Positions 25,271 to 35,951 of a stretch of DNA of 35,951 nt are shown here, piece after piece. The DNA lies in contig WELB01000111.1 in assembly GCA_009602725.1 (NCBI GenBank), positions 391,070-427,020 on the forward strand. The letters run 5' to 3'. Position numbers and translations under genes: made by a program. The notes below the pieces were generated by a model that saw only the letters and a program-made list of their open reading frames with translations, was not told the origin of the DNA and ran no database searches. The DNA is from Spirogloea muscicola (Eukaryota > Streptophyta > Zygnematophyceae > Spirogloeales > Spirogloeaceae). How positions within the stretch are numbered: the stretch's first letter is position 1; each line of letters opens with the position of its first letter.

Positions 25271-28200
25271 TCAGCCAGTATTCCGCATGTTACTTGCAAT
25301 GGCCTTGATAGTCCTGATCAGCGGCTTCTCCCAGAGAAGCTTCTCTTCCTCGGTCAATGTGGGATCACGTCTCCTTCCCAATAGAATGACCTGGCACGAG
25401 GGGCTGTCGCTCTCAGAAGTAGCAAAGGAAGAGCAGCTCCACCAGAATGGCAGATCGTGCATGGCGCTCTTGCAACCACAGAGTGATGGAGATGGCTTAG
25501 TATACCTGGATGTGATTTAAAGGATCTAGGTATTTGCGTCGGGTTTCAAAGGAGTTCTTGAGGAGGCGATTGTCCTCCTCTAAAGAGTTTTGTTGAGCAA
25601 TCATGAGGAACTGCAAGCAAGTTGCTCCAGAATAGTCAGCCCTCCACCACAAAGTCCGTCAACAGGCATGGCCCCTCAATCTGCTGAGTGCAGCCTGGCA
25701 AGTGATGTGTGTACCTGGGACTTGGTCAGGTCGTACTCTGCTAAGACAAGGTCGTAGATGAGCTTCTGAGTGATCCGGTTGCTGCGCAGAGGCACCAAGG
25801 CCACCAGTGCGGAAAGTCAACTTAAGGACAAGAAACTGGCACAGCTGTTGGAGGCTGAGAAGCAGATCCCAAGTGCATTGAACATCTCTGCACTATCTGC
25901 AACAATGTAGCTACTCCCGACAACACTATCCTTCTTATCATCTTACAAGAGAAATCACTTACCTGCAGAGGCTGGAGTACTCATTAGCAATCTCCATGGA
26001 AGCCTTGAAAAGCGCCATCTGCTGACAGATGAAGCATGTTGTCAAGTCAACTGCAGGTCACCCTAAAAGCCCAAGCTGGCAATGTGGTCTTGAGGCTGCT
26101 ACTCAATACAAGCACATATAAGGACTGGCACGCAGTCGGTACAGCAGACTCGCTGGTGCCAATCCCATCACAGTCAGATTTCAAGCTGTTGCTCAGAGCA
26201 ACGGAGAAATAGGAAGTAGGACTTGACCTGCACATTGGAAAGGAAGTTGCGGAAGAAAGGCCAGTCTATGTACATTCTCTGGAGCTCCTGTATGCGAACT
26301 GGATGATTCTCGGTGTAGCCAAGAATGCCAGAGCCGACTCCAAACCATGCTGGTAGAGTTACTCGCGACTGCGATCATTCACAAGCCATGTGGCACTGTC
26401 AAACTTGGTGGTAGCTACAACCAGCCTGTGAAGTGCGATGCGCACAAGCCCAGCAAGCTTGTGTGCATGTGTAACCCTGTTGAGACTTGCAGGTGAGACT
26501 CCCATCAACAGCCCAGAATACATAGCTGCCACATCCTGCACCTTGTGTGCAGCGTTTCCAGTTATTCTGGGCTTTGGATTGCAGAGAAGCATGTTGCAAC
26601 TTTCTGCTGGCATCAATCAGAGCATTGAAGCAAATTTCCAATCAACCGCAAAGAAAAGCATGCTGCCAGTTCTGCACCTGAGCCCAGCCGAAGACCCACG
26701 GGATTGCTCGGAGGCTTGATTTGTCTCGTACAGATGACTGTCTCCTCGATGGCCTACTGCCAATGTTCATCAAGTTGACCTCATTGACAACAGTGGCCTC
26801 GTAGAAGTAGTCATAGAAACCCTCAGTGTCATCTGTCAAATCCCTGTACGCCTTCTGGGCATTGCTGGCTATCGTTGTCATGATGTCATAATACTGCACC
26901 AATATTGAGAGAGTGGTCATGATAATTGTCAGTCTGGCAGCAAAATGCCCATGAGAAGACAAGTGCATGCAAGCTAGAAAGCGCCACTGAGCAGGCATGT
27001 GCGCTCCCACCAAATACTTTGCCCTTACTAACAAATGACTGAAGTGGTGCATGCCTGCTGCGGTACGTCAGCATTTGCCCTGGTAGCTGGGTGGCTCGCT
27101 TTCAGCAACCCGGTGATTCCCACCTGCCAAGATTATAGTGCGCTGCTCACAACAGAGTAACAAGCACTAACAACACAAAGACAGCACTGCCATAGTCAAC
27201 AACTATAACAAGTGCGGTCCATCTCCATCTGCAACGTGAGTGACACCTTCGTCCTGCCCCATGCTATCGTCTATGGCATGTCACACGCATTCCTTGGACA
27301 TGCAGCCAGGACTATGCCATCACCAGACGCACAGTGAGCTCAAAAGTGGCTGTCTCTGCATTCCCATAGCGGTAAGTGATGACCTCCCCTTGCTCTGTGA
27401 ACTTGATCTTCCCCGCCACTGATCCTGCAGGCTGCACATCGATGCCAAGATCTGCCTCAGGTAAGAGGGTGGATGGAGTAGATTCTGTTGCCATTTCATG
27501 GCACTTGCCTTGCTGCCACCAAGTCACTCAATCTGATACACACAGGGAGCCTGCGAAGATACTCCTCATCTTCAGTGCAGACCTCATGTCACAATGACAT
27601 ACCTGAGCAAGCACTGACTCGTGTGTTGGCCCGGCTCCTCGCCCCACCGTTCCACCTCTGCCATGGAAGATCCTTGACTTGACACCGGCTGATATTGTTA
27701 TCTCCCTGATCACCTCCTGGGCTTTGTAGAGGTTGTAGGCACTGGCCGTGATGCCGCCGTCTTTGCAGGAGTCTGAGTACCCGAGCATGACCTCCTGCTC
27801 AGAACCAGAAGTAGCAGGCTCGTGTGGTGTGAGAGCCCAAGCTTTGTCTCTGGGCGCTGGTAGTCATCCCACTTTGATGATGTGTGCTTGGCAAGCCAGC
27901 AGGCAATGCTGCGGAGCTCCTGAGATCCTACCTGGATACCGCCCGAGGAAGCCAGGATATCCTGGTAGGTTGGATTGTGCAGCAAAGATGCCAAAGCCTC
28001 TGGCATGTGCTGTCAAGGGGCAACGGGCATGCAGGCAGCTGGCATTGATAAGCCACACGTCTCTCAGCGTGACACGTACTTCCTTTTGAGCGTGTACTTA
28101 TGCTTGTCTCACTTGACAGAAACCTGAACACGGCTTTGCTCGGGTCAATTAGCCGTTCTTGCAGGAGAGCTGGCGGTGCAAAAGAACAAGCATGGCTTGC

Positions 28201-31200
28201 ATCAGATGACCTGTGTCTCACCTCCAAATCTGGGATCGTCTCAAAGAGGGGAGCAACAACAATGCGTGACTGCCACTTTCCATCCCCGTCCTTGAATATC
28301 AGGTCTCGGCATGCAAACCACGCCAAGAACAACACCTGGAAGTAGGAAAGAAGCAGCACTGGCCTCAAATGTCTCAAATGATGTTGCTCTTCATGACTCA
28401 GAGCCATGTGAACCCACAGGGTCGCAAAAGAGAACAATGACCTCACCTCCAAGATGTGGGAGGACTGCCGCGTCATGGATATCACGTAAGAAGCAACTGC
28501 TCGAGGCCCGAGCATGTCCATTATATTTGCGCAGCTCTCCAGAACCGCAACAACCTGCTGCGTTCCATCGGATGCGGCTTTAATAACCTCCTGCCAAGGC
28601 AACGATTGACAATGACTTTCAGCCTCTTGGATGGAGCTCTTTCCTGCCCTCCTGATGCAGATAACATTGCGGGAATGCTGAGATGCAAAACTGGAGGAAC
28701 GCATGGCTGTGAGTGGTAGTCACTTGTACAGCTTGAAGATAGATAGCTGCAGACCTCTCTCTTTCCGTATGGAGCAGGCTGCTGAAGGTAGCCCTCCAGG
28801 ACAGCCATGCGCTGCTGGTTGTCAAGCTCCAGATAGTCCTTGCTGCAGCCTAACAAGTGCAAGCACTCTGCCACAGCCTGTGAAAATGACAGGGACGAGG
28901 CTTGATTGAGATTCTCGCTGGTTTCTAATCAACTGCAGGCCACAATACCATGTCAGGCACCTTGGGCTGCTTACATGGTTGCTATCATCATGTGAAATAC
29001 AATCGTGATTTGCGAACGTGGTGGTGCCCAACCTCTGAATGCACACTTGACTCTTGCCGCACATCGAGTGCACACAAGAAGAACCCAAATGTCTCAGCCA
29101 GGCGGATGAGGTCCTTCAGCTTGCTATCTGCTGATCGCTGGTCACCATTGGCCCTCAAGGATGCCTAGCCCAAATGCACCATGACTATGTCAAAATGTGC
29201 TCCATACGTGTGCGACTAGTGGTCTCCTGTCAGCAACAAGAAGTGATTGACCCATGACATCCTCAACAGCACGGAAACTGTAGAAATAGCATAGGTGTGC
29301 TGCCTGCATTGAAGTATCACATCAACTATTCAGATCAAGTGACTCGGCTGCACTCCTTTCTTGTGAAGTCACAAGGTGCTGTTGCAGTGCAAATAGAAGC
29401 GCACATCAATGAGGCGCAAATCCTGCAAGAAATCGATCTCGCACAGATATGCATCCTTGTGGGGGTCCAGGCCTTCAATGTCGTCGATGTTGTACTCGTC
29501 GTCAAGCAGCAGAAGCTAGGAGCAGAAAAGCACAGCTACAGCTTGTGTGATTAAAAACGTTATTGTTGTCACTGCCACCCCTGGAATCATGGAGCATCAA
29601 CAGCCATCTCTCCAGCTCACGCATTTACAGAATACAGAAATGACGGAAAGGCCTGGCTCTCGATACCCGTTACTTACCTCACTGGCCACACCATCTTTTG
29701 AGAGCTGTCGCAGGTGCTGATTGACCATGCGAACATTCTGCTCCAGCCGGTGCCGCATCACGCGGAACTTCAGCCGGTATGGCTCCTGCATTGATGAGGC
29801 TGGAGACTGAGAGCCCTGCCAATGGAACCAACTCTATCTGCAATATCTTGCTTTAGCTACCACAGATTGTCTGCAATGCTCACTTGGCAGGGATACTGAC
29901 CTGATCAAATAGGTTGGCATCACCACCACGTATACTGCTCAAGACATCTGCATCCTTCTCTAGGGCGTCTAGGAGCTCAGGTGAGACATTGCAGATATGT
30001 AGAGAGTGCGTCAACATGTCCTACAACGGTCATCAGATCATCGAGCCAGGACTGTGTGAGGATTGTGTATGCTGTCCTGCAATTGTCATCAATTCGTCGA
30101 GCCAGGACCGCTCATCAAGCCAGGACAACTCATACTGCAGCATCCAGTGAGGGGAGCAGGCAGCATCACAGCAAGATACAACAAGGGAGAGGAAAGCCGT
30201 ATGCATTGTCACCTGGCAGGCGCGACAACGGCGAATGTACTCTGCAAGGATCAGACGGCTTTGCAGCAGTGCAGCCATTTCTGTTGTCTCGGGTAACACT
30301 GCCAAGCAGTAGCCGACATGATTTCTGACCACGTCAAGTCTTGACCTTGTGAGCTCATGCCTTTGCTGTCTTCTTCAGCTTGCACACACCAGGCGGAAAG
30401 CTCAGGAGAGCCACATGGCACGTATCACCTTGACTAGCACAAGCTTGGAATGCTTAGGAAAGGGCGGCGGCAAGCATACCAAATGGGTTGCCATCTCGGT
30501 CTCCCCCAATCCATGAGCCGAATTTTATCAAGCTAGGGACTTGCAGGCCAGCATTTGGATAGACATGCTGCCATTGACAAAGAGACAGTGAGCTCTTAAC
30601 GGAAAAGTCTTGCTCTTTGGCAATGATAGTCAAGCACAAGTCACAATCAATTCCGGTTTGCTGTTCATTGGTGCTTTAGCTCACTTGAAGCTCACAAGTG
30701 CTCCTTCCTGCAAGTCATGCCTCAGTCGCAAGGCAGGTCGCTGTGGCTGGCACCTGAAGCACCCCTCGCAAGCAAACAGTGTACTATTTTGCCTTGTCTG
30801 AGCATGCAAAGTTGATACGTCAGCGAGGAGTGCTGACCCTTATTGAATTCTCGGCATATCTGTAGGTGGTGCAGACGGCCTCAAAAAGGGAGTAACGGAA
30901 GTAGTCAAGGCCAGTCTGTATCTCCTCCAAGACTGTCGGTTTCTTGCCCCTCATTTCGTCTGTTCTCCACAGAATCTCGATCTGCATCACCCAACAAAAG
31001 AAGGACATGGGGGGCCAGTCGAGTCTGTCATCTTCTAGCCTGCTATCACTGCAAAGTACATGATCAGCTACACAGCAGGAAGGCATTTGTGACCGAGGCC
31101 ACGCAGCAGGAGGATACAATCAGTTCACCTCTGCATCGACCTCAACATCGATCTCAGATCTTTGGGCTGCACTAAGTCGTGGATCCTGCCATCGTCAAAT

Positions 31201-33426
31201 CCACTGTTGCCATCTCAGACCTAAGTGGTACAGCCACAAATCCATTGTGTACATTTGCTGACTGATTTATACTAGCACCCATCTTAAGATAGGCCTTCTC
31301 ATGGAAAGCAGAGTCACGTACCTATTACCCATCTCCCTTATTGCAGAGACCAGAGGCACAGACCTATTGAGAGGTACAGCATCATACAAGCAATCACAAG
31401 CTGGTTACCTCTGTATGTGTCAGAGGAAGTCAAGGAATGCCCACCTCACGAGAATGACAGAGCACAAAAATGCGATGTAGGCAAGTCAGGATCTCCCTTC
31501 GTCGCGCCTCAGTTGGGTGGGCAGTGAGCACAGGATAATACTGGCAAGTGGCAGTGAACGGAATGTATAAGTCCTCTATGAAGCTTCCGTGCATCTCCAG
31601 ACTGCTGTCTCAGCAAAGACACGAAGCCTGGGTAGGGAGCTAAGCCACTTCAATGACAGCTTGACTATGGAGGTGCTAGAGACCCCGGGTGAAAGTAACA
31701 ACCTAGGCCTAGAAATTAGATTGTTGTCAAATGCAACCGGTTGGCTCATAAATTCTTTTCCGAGGGCGTAGACTATTCAGCCTGATGACTGTTGATTCTC
31801 AGAGTCTACCTCAGAAGTAGGACGGTACGACTAAAAAGCACACCTCGCTTGGTGTATTGCCTAGCAAAGACACGTGGGATGTTGGCCACTGAACGGGTGG
31901 TGCAAACTTGTATCATCTGACCTCAAGACGATTCAAGAGTAGTTGAAGCTCCTTCGGAGGAACATCAAGACTCCGGAATAGCCGTAGCGTGTGGTCAAAG
32001 GAGGCATACCACAAAGGTGTGGCAGATTGGCTTGCCCAGACTTGCTCTCTTCTTGTCCGGTGTGCATGGGCTTCATCAGCAACGTTCAGTAAGGAAGAGT
32101 ACACGTAATACAAGCGTATCACCCCGTTCAGCTGAAGAAGTGAGTTACGGGTCCTCTCAGTGATCATGTGATGCACGACAGACGATTCATACGTTCAAAA
32201 TGAGCCCCGAACCTCTCCACGTTGTTGTGGTACTCTGCCGGTGAGCTTGCGTCAGACAAGTTTTGCATGCCATACCTGCTTGAGGAAAGAAACCATGAGT
32301 GCGTACCGTGGGCTCGTCCATTTTGTCAATGTAGCGAAGGAGTTCGGCACGCTTGCGAGGGTCCTCCTTGTCTCTGAGGGCCTCGAATCCCCGCTGGAGC
32401 GTGTTGGCCTGCAAATGTGAGGGGCATTACATGTGGCTTACCACACAGAGAAAAAAGGCAGCTGCAAAGGTACGACCAGCTATTTGCAGCCAATGAGGGC
32501 TACTCTTGGCATGTGTGCAGCAGCGCTTGAGTGCATAACCTACCGCTTCTAATATACGACTTTCTCCGTACTCCTCAACGACCTTCTCCAATCGTGACGT
32601 GAGGAAAGAGATCTGAAAGAAAATCAATCGCGCCCGCCCCTTTCAAATGCAGTAGTGAGCATGCTACTGTAGCAGGAGTTCTTGCAAACAGTGTCACCGG
32701 GGTCATCTGCTGCTATAGCATAATGACAGCGACAACAAAGCAAGCCCTTCTCGGGGTGCTCAGTGCCGGCTAGGCCATCAGCCAGTTTTGGCCAACCTGT
32801 TCTGTGAGCCTCGAGTCATCCTTCGAGGTTGCAATAAGCTTGCGAGTCTCCAGCTTCTTCATGATGCTGTCCTGAACACTAGCCCACTTGTCTTGGGCCA
32901 CAGCACCATCAGTTTCCAGATCCAGCACAACAAAAACGTCCAGTACACTGTTGTTTTGAGTCATAAGTCGCGCACTCTGCACACTGCAGGGGCCCACTCT
33001 TGTTAGGAGCCTGCATGGCACTGCAAATCCTTGAGCATTGCATCAGTCGCATGACCTAGCCTCGAGAGCACACAATGACTGCCACCCTGCGCAGTGTACA
33101 ATGATGTGATGGGAAGGGGAGTCGAGACTTGCCCGATTCCCATCTCGCTAAAAGTAGCAGAGATGTCGGCCAAGAGATTCTCTTGGTTCACTCCTTGTAC
33201 TACAATAACCGTGGTGCCTGGTGAGCTCTCGTTGTCAAATCGGACAAGAAAGTCACCGTTCACTGCGAGGGTTGTCGCAGCGGGTACATCGTCCTCCAGT
33301 TGGACTGCAGCACCAACTTCTGCAGCTAGAGCTGCAACAGTGCCATTGTCAGGTGGCGACTGCTGATGTGGAGCTGAGCTCGTGGTGTCCAAATTGGGGA
33401 GTGCTTCCGTTCTCCAAGGTATGTTC
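25271..33426 (-). CDS. PPC: PEP carboxylase, bacterial-type-like, with N-terminal ACT domain (5' partial)
   Basis: Carboxylates phosphoenolpyruvate to oxaloacetate. About 26 exons are recognisable on the minus strand. Those I could place exactly: 33133-33426, 32797-32983, 32544-32612, 32307-32408, 31922-32131, 31445-31540, 31129-31185, 30838-30981 and 30480-30567; at the 3' end 25506-25610 and 25271-25390. The rest lie near 30.3, 29.95, 29.75, 29.45, 29.1, 28.8, 28.5, 28.3, 27.95, 27.7, 27.4, 26.8, 26.3, 26.0 and 25.75 kb. PEPC motifs: [13 protein letters not shown] (catalytic His), [65 protein letters not shown], and the C-terminus NMRNTG. The RNTG ending is that of bacterial-type PEPCs; plant-type enzymes end QNTG. 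The first two exons encode an ACT domain joined in phase. The start codon is not found; the first listed exon begins mid-codon. Confidence 0.9.
32797..33426 (-). other. ACT domain encoded by the first PEPC exons
   Basis: The two exons (33133-33426, 32797-32983) encode a Pro/Ser/Ala-rich lead, then [64 protein letters not shown] and [10 protein letters not shown]. The alternation VIVVQG / NLLADI / F.E.GI.V..AR / VLDVFVVLD is the beta-alpha-beta-beta-alpha pattern of ACT domains, as in plant ACR proteins and bacterial GlnD. ACT domains bind amino acids or other small ligands and regulate enzymes. The intron between the halves has a GC donor with the classic GCAAGT consensus. The second exon ends in phase 0, and the next exon continues into the helical N-terminus of PEPC. 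Identification as an ACT fold rests on pattern recognition only. Confidence 0.78.
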
Positions 33427-34420
33427 CTGCAATAAAGTTGCGGCTCACAGTGCTTGTTGAAGACTCTGACATTGCAACAATTTGGTTGCAGATCTCAGAA
33501 GCTTCGGTCGATATCGCAGCGCAGCAGGATGGCAACTACTGTTCAAGCTCCACAGCCCATTGCTTGCTCTCCTACAGGTCTCCCAGCGAAATGCCAGCTG
33601 TAGCAGGCCCTGTGAGCAGTGTGGGCTCTGGTCATGCGTGCTTGCACCAGGCCTGCTGAACTACTGCAATGTACGAGGCATGCTGCCTTTGGGAGTGTCC
33701 TTGCTTGATCAACACCAAGTCAAGGCTGCACCTTGCATGAGGCCTGCAGTTGCTGCACCCAGGCAGCCAAGGTCGAGGTCGAGCGGCAGCTGTGCTACCT
33801 GCAGAGCAGCTTTCCCGCTGCATGGCTGCTTCCATCTGCACCAGAGGCCAGTGCTGCTTCTCTGTGATGAAGAGGGAGTGACCATGGCTCGTCGACTGCC
33901 GAGCCGGCTGGCTGTGTCGGACGGCTGTCCGCTCACCAGTGGAGCGCGCGCCGCTCCGCGCTTTCCAGAGGTGTGCATGAGGCTGCCGTGGCTTTTGGCG
34001 GGCTCAGCAACGCCGCTGGCACGAGCAGGAGAGCGTGGGCCTGCAGAGTGCGCCCGGTTCCGAGTGGAGCTGGAGCACGGGGTGCCCGACCTGCAGCAAT
34101 GTGAGTCGGCACGAGGTTAGCGAGGGTCGTCCGCAGTCGCTGCTGGCACAGGGGCTGCGGAGGAAAGCACAGGGGCGCGGGCGTGGTGACGAGCAGAGCT
34201 GGTGGGGCGCTGCGGGGGCGGGAGGGGCCGGAGGCACCTGCAAGCCAGAGCCGCGGCGGCGGCGGCCGGAGCAGCAGGCGGCGCAGAGGCGGCCATGGTG
34301 GGGGGCCGCAGGGGCAGGGCAGCTCCTGCCCGGGGGGAGTGGCCAGCTTGCCCGGGCCTCCGGGCCTCCGGGCTGTGGACCGTGGGCCCGTGCCGACGGG
34401 GCGGCTGGGGGGCTCATTCT
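33427..34420. other. Region upstream of PEPC
   Basis: It should contain the PEPC promoter and its missing 5' exon or exons on the minus strand, since the first recognised exon starts mid-codon after a TTGCAG acceptor. I could not choose a start: candidate ATGs on the minus strand near 33.47 and 33.98 kb do not give a matching splice phase. Plus-strand open frames here have low-complexity composition and no known motif. Positions 34200-34420 are very GC-rich. Confidence 0.4.
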
Positions 34421-34650
34421 CTTTGTTCTCTCTTTGGGTACTAATGTCATCTTAGGTACCTTAGATTAGGTCTCCGTATTATGTAGCATTGTTTAGTCTG
34501 CACTCGACTCTGCCTGAACAATGTATTGGCTTGAATTGGCCTCCCTTTCAATTCATGCGCCCCGCGCGCCTTCTCTCTCTTTGTGCATTCCTTGTTTGGG
34601 CTGGCTGTTCCAGCCCATATCCTCAATGGGCGAGCCCTTTCCTTCCTTCA
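34421..34650 (+). repeat. Retroelement 3' module plus type 2 hairpin unit
   Basis: The degenerate end of an ORF (LFGY then stop, about 34430-34442) is followed by the 140-base 3' module at 34440-34579 (from TACTAATGTCATCTTAGG to GCGCCTTCTCTCT). A type 2 hairpin unit comes next, with a perfect stem (GGGCTGG 34598-34604, CCAGCCC 34610-34616) and ATCCTCAATGGGCGAGC. The module therefore sits between the element's stop codon and the hairpin unit. Confidence 0.85.
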
Positions 34651-34965
34651 TTCTGGTCGCCCTGGGCTGGCGCCTCACAGCCTCCTGCAAGCCTCCTACA
34701 TCGTCGTGTGTTTCTGCCGTGGTTTGCAGTGTGGTTCCCTTCTCGTCCTTGGCTTGAAGAAAGGGCTCGCCCATAGAAGAAGTGGCACTCCCAATGGGGG
34801 CAAGGGCTGCGAAAAGCCAGCCCAACAAGAATTGACAAAAGTTCGAAGGGGCCGAAAAAGCGTGGAGCAGCTGCAAGCAGCCATAGAGAAGAGGGGCTGG
34901 CGTCCTTGGCTGTGGACATTGTCCATTCTTGTTGGGCTGGCTTTGGGCGACCACTTTCTTCCTGC
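34650..34965. repeat. Mosaic of hairpin units in opposite orientations
   Basis: A plus-strand GGGCTGGC...CACAGCC box at about 34661-34681 is followed by minus-strand pieces: AAGGGCTCGCCCAT (type 2 right end), then a type 1 unit at 34770-34870. A minus half of a type 3 unit ending at the stem (about 34880-34900) comes next, then a plus type 3 unit from about 34908 (GTGGACATTGTCCATTC, GGGCTGGC at 34934). Several junctions fall at or beside the hairpin stem. Confidence 0.65.
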
Positions 34966-35149
34966 AGGCCCCCCTCTCTTACACACGCACCCGTCTTTGC
35001 GGCTGCTGCCGGGGCAGGCAGGGCAACTGCGCCCCACGTGTGCGCCACGCGTCAGGCGCGCAGGGGCCGCTGGTGCCACGGGGGCCAGGAGACGCCCCCC
35101 CACTCCGCTTCTGTGTTTCCTGCTTTCTGCTCCATCCGGCTCCATCAGA

Positions 35150-35359
35150 CCTTGTCCATTGCTTTGGGCTCCAGCTCCCCAAGTTAGCTTGTCAGATTTG
35201 TTTGTGCTCACCCGTGGGTACTAATGTCATCTTAGGTACCTTAGATTAGGTCTCCGTATTATGTAGCCTTGTTTAGTCTGCACTCGACTCTGCCTGAACA
35301 ATGTATTGGCTTGAATTGGCCTCCCTTTCAATTCATGCGCCCCGCGCGCCTTCTCTCTT
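35150..35359 (+). repeat. Retroelement 3' end, plus arm of inverted pair
   Basis: This contains the C-terminal peptide SDLFVLTRGY and stop (about 35190-35222), followed at 35219-35359 by the 140-base 3' module. The segment 35169-35357 recurs almost unchanged in inverted orientation at 35761-35949; I noticed only two substitutions. The left part of the fragment (about 34965-35150) is not clearly homologous to the other copies. Confidence 0.85.
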
Positions 35360-35365
35360 TGGGCT

Positions 35366-35387
35366 GGGTTTAGGGTTTAGGGTTTAG
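35366..35387 (+). repeat. Interstitial telomeric repeat (TTTAGGG)
   Basis: GGG followed by two full TTTAGGG units and a partial TTTAG. TTTAGGG is the telomere repeat of plants and many green algae including Chlorella. The array sits exactly between GGCTGG (35362-35367) and CCAGCC (35388-35393), which are the stem arms of the retroelement hairpin unit, so it replaces the usual short loop. Confidence 0.9.
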
Positions 35388-35449
35388 CCAGCCACCAGTC
35401 AATCTGGCCGCGCTTCCCTCCCTATCCCGCCCATCGTATTTCATGCCCT

Positions 35450-35680
35450 TGTTGCGGAGTGCTGGTGGCCCACCACGCCGGGCGGGCACTGCTGACGTGG
35501 TCGCCACAGCTGCGGGTTGGCCCGGCTTGCGCCGCGCTCTGCCCCGCAGGCGTGGCGAGCAGGCCGACTCAACGCCGCTGGCTCGTCAGAACCCGTGCTT
35601 CGCATGCGCCTGTACCTGTTCCTCCAGCGCTCCATGGCCCACGCCCTGCGTGCTAGACGTGCTCCTAGCTGCAGCCTCTT
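35450..35680 (+). pseudogene. Retroelement tail domain fragment
   Basis: The frame around 35570-35660 reads AAGSSEPVLRMRLYLFLQRS then MAHALRARRA, clearly matching the NRMRLAVSLQRSMARALHLR segment of the 16320-17434 copy. Upstream similarity fades. The fragment has no stop-region peptide of its own; instead it runs into the inverted 3' end copy on its right. Confidence 0.65.
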
Positions 35681-35699
35681 GCTTTCGCCAAGGAGAGAA

Positions 35700-35951
35700 C
35701 GACGCTTCCAGGCAAGGGCGGTGGCTGGGAGTGGCCAGCCCAGAGAAACAAATGAACAGAGAGAAGGCGCGCGGGGCGCATGAATTGAAAGGGAGGCCAA
35801 TTCAAGTCAATACATTGTTCAGGCAGAGTCGAGTGCAGACTAAACAATGCTACATAATACGGAGACCTAATCTAAGGTACCTAAGATGACATTAGTACCC
35901 ACGGGTGAGCACAAACAAATCTGACAAGCTAACTTGGGGAGCTGGAGCGCC
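35700..35951 (-). repeat. Retroelement 3' end, minus arm of inverted pair
   Basis: The minus strand reads SDLFVLTRGY and stop (about 35930-35898), the 140-base 3' module (35898-35758), then the start of a hairpin unit (GGGCTGGCCACTCCCAGCC, about 35746-35728). It mirrors 35169-35357 and continues past the right edge of the window. Confidence 0.85.

Follow-up and report, generated by a model that had tools for sequence, protein, structure and literature searches.

A predicted ACT–PEP carboxylase fusion gene of proteobacterial affinity in the alga Spirogloea muscicola

Results

A 27-exon gene joins an ACT domain to PEP carboxylase

Contig WELB01000111.1 of the Spirogloea muscicola assembly GCA_009602725.1 carries a gene predicted to encode phosphoenolpyruvate carboxylase (PEPC) with an N-terminal ACT domain. 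It lies on the minus strand of the 35,951-nucleotide stretch analysed here (the window). Built by hand from the sequence and compared with two further copies in the same genome, its coding region comprises 27 exons between 33426 and 25271 (Table 1). Two ACT exons (33426-33133 and 32983-32797) splice in phase onto 25 PEPC exons. In the encoded protein, of at least 1,100 residues, a leader and one ACT domain are followed by a linker of 18 residues and the complete PEPC. The initial annotation had proposed that the ACT exons join the PEPC in phase 0 and that the PEPC body is complete up to an RNTG end. Both points are borne out: the fusion intron is a phase 0 GT-AG intron kept in all three copies, PF00311 is covered over profile positions 1-919 of 919 (857.7 bits versus a cut-off of 22.4), and the C-terminal (R/K)NTG motif is present as NMRNTG. 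Its pair of ACT exons likewise encodes one ACT domain, but the join between them that its peptides implied had to be replaced.

The first intron is of the GC-AG type (GG/GCAAGT to CTGCAG/TGTGCAG; the exon ends at 33133 and the next begins at 32983), and this junction is conserved in all three copies. The corrected join adds one residue (...MGIGVQSARL...) and gives a GlnD-type ACT score of 42.8 bits (1.5e-11) versus 34.1 bits (6.3e-9) for the implied one. The latter, a phase 0 join of CAA/GTCTCG to TGTGCAG/AGTGCG that leaves the ACT one residue short, was rejected because its donor is GT in the window copy only and GC in the other two, and because of this lower score. Across the gene, acceptors are AG in all three copies and donors are GT except after exons 1 and 21, where all three have GC. 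Exon phases agree among the copies with the sole exception of exon 17 in one of them, and the window copy and the copy on contig C312 are open from exon 1 through to the stop.

Since exon 1 opens in phase 2 and has no Met ahead of the ACT, a 5′ exon with the start codon is located upstream of 33426. Six ATGs upstream of exon 1 are common to the three copies, and no candidate stands out among them; eight single-exon combinations that start from these shared ATGs and use a conserved GT donor fit the phase of exon 1, several of them resembling targeting peptides. The leader is Ala/Ser-rich and may direct the protein to the plastid. A Big_6 match over the leader (0.0082-0.0085, under the cut-off) was read as chance. 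Farther upstream, similarity to the other two copies ends near 34400, and positions 34430-35951 form a mosaic of short repeats with at least 154 genome-wide matches (40 of 6428 candidates scored), including an element of about 200 bp matched in both orientations.

The N-terminal domain is closest to the ACT of GlnD

The best NCBIfam match of the joined ACT region was to the C-terminal part of GlnD (PRK05092, positions 841-933 of 940) with the score and E-value given above, and the same match was found in the two other copies (7.3e-13 and 3.8e-11). Over the same residues three Pfam ACT models matched, PF24931 (1.8e-5), PF22754 (1.1e-3) and PF13291 (1.2e-3), all under their gathering scores. Taken singly, the exon 1 frame reached PF24931 only at 0.048 and the exon 2 frame matched no Pfam family. 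Genome searches with single Pfam ACT models did not list the PEPC ACT, which is split over these two exons. By best profile match the fused domain is nearest to the ACT of GlnD, and its fusion to the PEPC is well supported. Together, the profile E-values and the recurrence of the same architecture in three homeologous copies make a chance match very unlikely and argue for a real ACT–PEPC architecture.

All 16 positions compared between the PEPC body and the E. coli enzyme are identical. We take these to include the catalytic His138, Lys546 and Arg587 and the aspartate site formed by Lys773, Arg832 and Asn881; at the sequence level, the residues of the native aspartate/malate site are intact.

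The fusion recurs in two homeologous copies with low dN/dS

The fusion and its splice sites recur on contigs C126 and C312, with 93% and 92% DNA identity, respectively, over 901 bases of the ACT region. In the three pairwise comparisons, the ratio of nonsynonymous to synonymous substitution rates (dN/dS) was 0.14, 0.23 and 0.28 in the ACT, 0.29-0.45 in the leader and 0.09-0.12 in the PEPC body. The 18-residue linker (32797-32850) is invariant among the three copies at the DNA level as well, in contrast to the two introns closest to it, where about 8-11% of sites differ.

A whole-genome PF00311 search returned matches on at least nine contigs, a lower bound with 50 of 101 candidates scored, and by profile coverage these look like three sets of three. 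The loci resemble contig triplets (C111/C126/C312, C31/C92/C218 and C74/C93/C254), which, together with the 92-93% identity of the ACT regions, suggests a triploid or hybrid genome. One member of each of the two other sets was read. C254 carries a plant-type PEPC (PTPC) ending in MQNTG, and C31 a PEPC resembling the bacterial type of plants and algae (BTPC), read over a stretch that stops before the C-terminus.

The PEPC body groups with proteobacterial enzymes

Bacterial relatives were collected from a set of genome contigs by an alignment-based scan; a scan of that set with the PEPC body alone gave none. Among the best 80 of 592, Gammaproteobacteria were closest, with up to 48% best-segment identity, while Bacillota, Actinomycetota and most Alpha- and Betaproteobacteria among the matches listed showed about 32-36%. 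A quick tree of 91 rows combined 86 of 88 bacterial or viral-contig proteins (L030 and L094, shorter than 780 residues, were left out) with E. coli and four algal rows; in both this tree and the next, the eukaryotic rows were PEPCs of this alga only, one of them BTPC-like. Here the window gene fell within a 31-row group with a Shimodaira–Hasegawa-like approximate likelihood ratio test (SH-aLRT) support of 100, in which the other 29 rows were 28 Pseudomonadota and, outermost, a Chloroflexi bin. Possible long-branch attraction was flagged in the quick tree for the PTPC and E. coli. In a careful tree of 34 rows, a subset of the former, 17 proteobacterial rows (15 Gamma-, one Alpha- and one Betaproteobacterium) and two algal rows lay on one side of a branch with 100/100 support, and the alga's PTPC and BTPC-like gene formed a separate 100/100 group with E. 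coli. Of three PEPC loci on viral contigs, two had the length needed for the tree; these fell in with Paenibacillus and Burkholderiales rows.

Within the available rows, phylogeny thus assigns the predicted window PEPC to a proteobacterial, mostly gammaproteobacterial lineage, apart from the plant-type and bacterial-type PEPCs of the alga. The name "bacterial-type PEPC", given to it initially in the plant and algal sense, is therefore withdrawn: the separate BTPC-like gene on C31 is placed with the PTPC and E. coli, whereas the window gene groups with the 17 proteobacterial rows. Because of this 100/100 grouping apart from the alga's other PEPCs, the gene looks horizontally acquired; with 26 introns and with homeologous copies on three contigs, it is unlikely to be a contaminant. 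Sulfur oxidisers make up many of the genera named in the clade. Neither the unresolved branching order inside the clade nor the long algal branch (1.22 changes per column) allows a donor to be named.

The gammaproteobacterial PEPCs of Thiohalomonas, Thioalkalivibrio, Halochromatium, Methylophaga and others share this clade with the catalytic body of the window gene but differ in being single uninterrupted frames in which no ACT was found. The plant-type and bacterial-type PEPCs of green algae and plants belong to the same Pfam family, and the RNTG end is common to BTPC and the window gene, (R/K)NTG being a published mark of BTPC (PMC4196954); they differ in that they are separate genes here and fall, together with E. 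coli, into a 100/100 group outside which the window gene lies.

The ACT has its nearest in-genome relative on a phosphorylase-like gene

A local profile was built from the three PEPC ACTs; its GlnD positive control was modest (23.4 bits for the whole protein). At E-values up to 0.5, none of 89 PEPC loci from bacteria or viral contigs (5 from plasmids, 1 from E. coli, 80 from genomes and 3 from viral contigs, of which L030, L034, L060 and L093 start inside the gene) yielded an ACT, although a very diverged one could escape, and neither did two other algal PEPC loci (L004 and L005). Only the ACT on contig C75 and E. coli GlnD matched.

Outside the three copies, the nearest ACTs in the genome lie on C75, C77 and C156 (38-39% identity, E 7e-5 to 1.3e-4). 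The C75 ACT (L096:3268-4113) sits in a single open frame of 281 residues in which Pfam sees only the ACT, and it matches the same GlnD models as the PEPC ACT (5.6e-16). The stretch that follows it we take to be the start of a glucan phosphorylase of the PHOB type; a later exon matches PF00343 with 56.8 bits. Starch phosphorylases PHOB/PHO3 have been described as bearing an N-terminal ACT (PMC5005325), and the predicted C75 gene fits this architecture, giving the fusion of an ACT to a carbon enzyme a precedent. PHOB/PHO3 (Chlamydomonas STA4, Lotus PHO3) resemble the window gene in combining an N-terminal leader, one ACT and an enzyme of central carbon metabolism. They differ in that the enzyme is a glucan phosphorylase, not PEPC, and in the NRPG loop of the C75 ACT; the kinship of C75 with PHOB is one of architecture, not of a tree. 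By profile score, the C-terminal ACTs of the GlnD [protein-PII] uridylyltransferase and the plant ACR proteins fall into the same ACT subfamily. GlnD has two C-terminal ACTs on a signalling enzyme, in contrast to the single N-terminal ACT on a metabolic enzyme predicted here. A full-text literature search, with most subscription journals outside its coverage, found no paper on an ACT–PEPC fusion.

Table 1. Exons and selected introns of the ACT–PEPC gene, in window coordinates.
Feature	Position	Strand	Note
ACT exon 1: Ala/Ser-rich leader (~58 aa) and first half of ACT	33133..33426	-	opens in phase 2, no Met before ACT
GC-AG intron between ACT exons	32984..33132	-	donor GCAAGT here, GCAAGC in two homeologs
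ACT exon 2: remainder of ACT, then 18-aa linker	32797..32983	-	linker identical in 3 copies
Fusion intron, phase 0, GT-AG	32613..32796	-	conserved in 3 copies
PEPC exon 1, no Met	32544..32612	-	
PEPC exon 2	32307..32408	-	
PEPC exon 3	31922..32131	-	
PEPC exon 4, VLTAHPTEA (E. coli His138)	31450..31540	-	
PEPC exon 5	31129..31166	-	
PEPC exon 6	30838..30981	-	
PEPC exon 7	30480..30567	-	
PEPC exon 8	30213..30298	-	
PEPC exon 9	29901..30020	-	
PEPC exon 10	29678..29785	-	
PEPC exon 11	29405..29515	-	
PEPC exon 12, LDVRQES (E. coli Arg396)	29033..29164	-	
PEPC exon 13	28755..28877	-	
PEPC exon 14	28447..28590	-	
PEPC exon 15 (17th overall; C126 copy +1 base)	28222..28335	-	
PEPC exon 16	27932..28009	-	
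PEPC exon 17	27603..27794	-	
PEPC exon 18	27333..27431	-	
PEPC exon 19 (21st overall)	27055..27123	-	
Second GC-AG intron, after 21st exon overall	27054-26894	-	GC donor in 3/3 copies
PEPC exon 20	26678..26893	-	
PEPC exon 21	26228..26368	-	
PEPC exon 22	25963..26018	-	
PEPC exon 23	25715..25781	-	
PEPC exon 24	25506..25610	-	
PEPC exon 25, ending NMRNTG then TGA	25271..25390	-	

Discussion

The initial annotation had suggested that the added domain may let this PEPC sense an amino acid. A GlnD-type ACT immediately ahead of the first PEPC helix would indeed most simply be read as an added input of nitrogen status. We propose, at a probability of about 0.5, that this domain places an acquired PEPC under the control of an amino acid, perhaps glutamine. 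In this scheme, horizontal acquisition of the PEPC gene would have been followed by the gain of introns and of a regulatory ACT akin to that of a PHOB-like starch phosphorylase. The ACT domains of neighbouring subunits would pair beside the PEPC N-terminal helix and bind an amino acid, for which kinship with GlnD would make glutamine the leading candidate; binding might then shift PEPC activity, so that a nitrogen signal would act alongside the native aspartate/malate site. GlnD is described as regulated by glutamine and 2-oxoglutarate via its ACT domains (PMC12702975), and activation by glutamine has been reported for the Chlamydomonas PEPC and for one Selenastrum minutum isoform (PMC7046716).

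Several observations weigh against this proposal. According to the same source, glutamine inhibits the PEPC of Synechococcus 7002 and activates that of a related cyanobacterium (PMC7046716). Since a cyanobacterial PEPC also responds to glutamine, by inhibition, such effects need no ACT, and the glutamine-responsive PEPCs of Chlamydomonas and Selenastrum are not known to carry one. The Pfam ACT scores fall short of gathering (25.2 versus 27 for PF24931, 19.6 versus 27.6 for PF22754 and 19.9 versus 27 for PF13291), and PF22754, the plant basic helix-loop-helix (bHLH) ACT-like domain, scores about equal to ACT_4. A phmmer search of the ACT part against PDB returned no ACT chain, with one chance match at E 0.43. 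The loop through which ACT domains bind their ligands follows a DRPG-like consensus. It reads NQEN, NQEN and NQDN in the three copies, with no DRPG-like sequence, compared with DQPG in GlnD ACT2, DRPY in GlnD ACT1 and NRPG in the C75 ACT. This altered loop may mean that ligand binding is abolished or changed, the ligand being different or absent. In the PEPC body, GRGAGP stands where six of six bacterial rows read GRGG, with Gly at the fourth position. Finally, one extra base in the C126 copy (C126:15622, L001:6723), in exon 17 overall, shifts the PEPC frame; it may be a sequencing error or the mark of a broken copy.

The serious rival to amino-acid control, in our estimate the less probable of the two, accepts the fusion and takes the ACT to be ligand-free, a dimerisation or docking module that sets the oligomeric state or links the window PEPC with the other PEPCs of the alga or with a further ACT protein. 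Such a role would suit the NQEN/NQDN loop and the match to PF22754 (1.1e-3), bHLH ACT-like domains acting by dimerisation. However, the best matches of the domain are GlnD ACTs, and GlnD ACT1 itself is without the loop glycine (DRPYLF).

Far less probable are two adjacent genes, one for an ACT protein that terminates near 32.77 kb and one for a PEPC whose promoter and first exon are separate. Read-through from ACT exon 2 does run into an in-frame stop, the ninth codon in each of the three copies, and the spacer could accommodate, likewise in each, a first exon of three codons (MTP or MTL, before GTGACA) followed by an intron of 85-86 bases. Yet none of the three copies has an in-frame Met between the PEPC exons and the stop upstream of them; the PEPC exons begin at ISFLTSRL, the same point at which bacterial PEPCs aligning from residue 1 start, and the first Met in the PEPC frame (...YIDKMDEPT) lies beyond the first helices. 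The 184-bp spacer, moreover, diverges like an intron. It has 17 substitutions in 183 aligned positions against C126 and 15 in 181 against C312, compared with 5 and 7 in 187 for ACT exon 2 (Fisher p 0.008 and 0.08, respectively); for both ACT exons, leader excluded, against both introns, p is 0.0009 (C126) and 0.012 (C312). A separate ACT protein would need to end within this intron-like sequence, and donor and acceptor of the fusion intron are conserved in all three copies. We therefore consider it very probable that the predicted ACT–PEPC fusion is one gene. Least probable is a gene in decay, with the ACT as a degenerate remnant and the PEPC on its way to being lost. The frameshift in one of three copies, the changed ACT loop and GRGAGP lend this view some weight. 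Opposed to it are the open frame that two of the copies keep from exon 1 up to the stop, low dN/dS in both ACT and PEPC, and the retention of all compared PEPC positions.

If the predicted fusion acts as an amino-acid-controlled enzyme, it would bear on how carbon and nitrogen metabolism are joined in this alga. PEPC stands at the entry of carbon into amino-acid synthesis, and we have come across no structural basis for the long-reported effects of glutamine on green-algal PEPC (PMC7046716); in an enzyme that carries a GlnD-type sensor domain of its own, the carbon–nitrogen link would become directly testable by deletion of a single domain. Together with the ACT-bearing PHOB, it might place the same sensor family on an enzyme of stored carbon and on the supplier of carbon skeletons for nitrogen assimilation.

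In the green lineage, PII is the glutamine sensor, with an unrelated fold, as a separate protein and with a different target. The ACT–PEPC would share with plant PII a carbon/nitrogen role and differ in precisely these respects. A published survey distinguishes two PEPC types in chlorophytes and land plants (PMC4196954), to which the window gene would add a third PEPC lineage in green algae and a case of an acquired enzyme placed under host-type regulation. More tentatively, a PEPC taken from a gammaproteobacterium and combined with a GlnD-type ACT might constitute a third class of algal PEPC, one whose anaplerotic flux would answer directly to glutamine or a different amino acid, as a carbon/nitrogen switch on one polypeptide parallel to PII.

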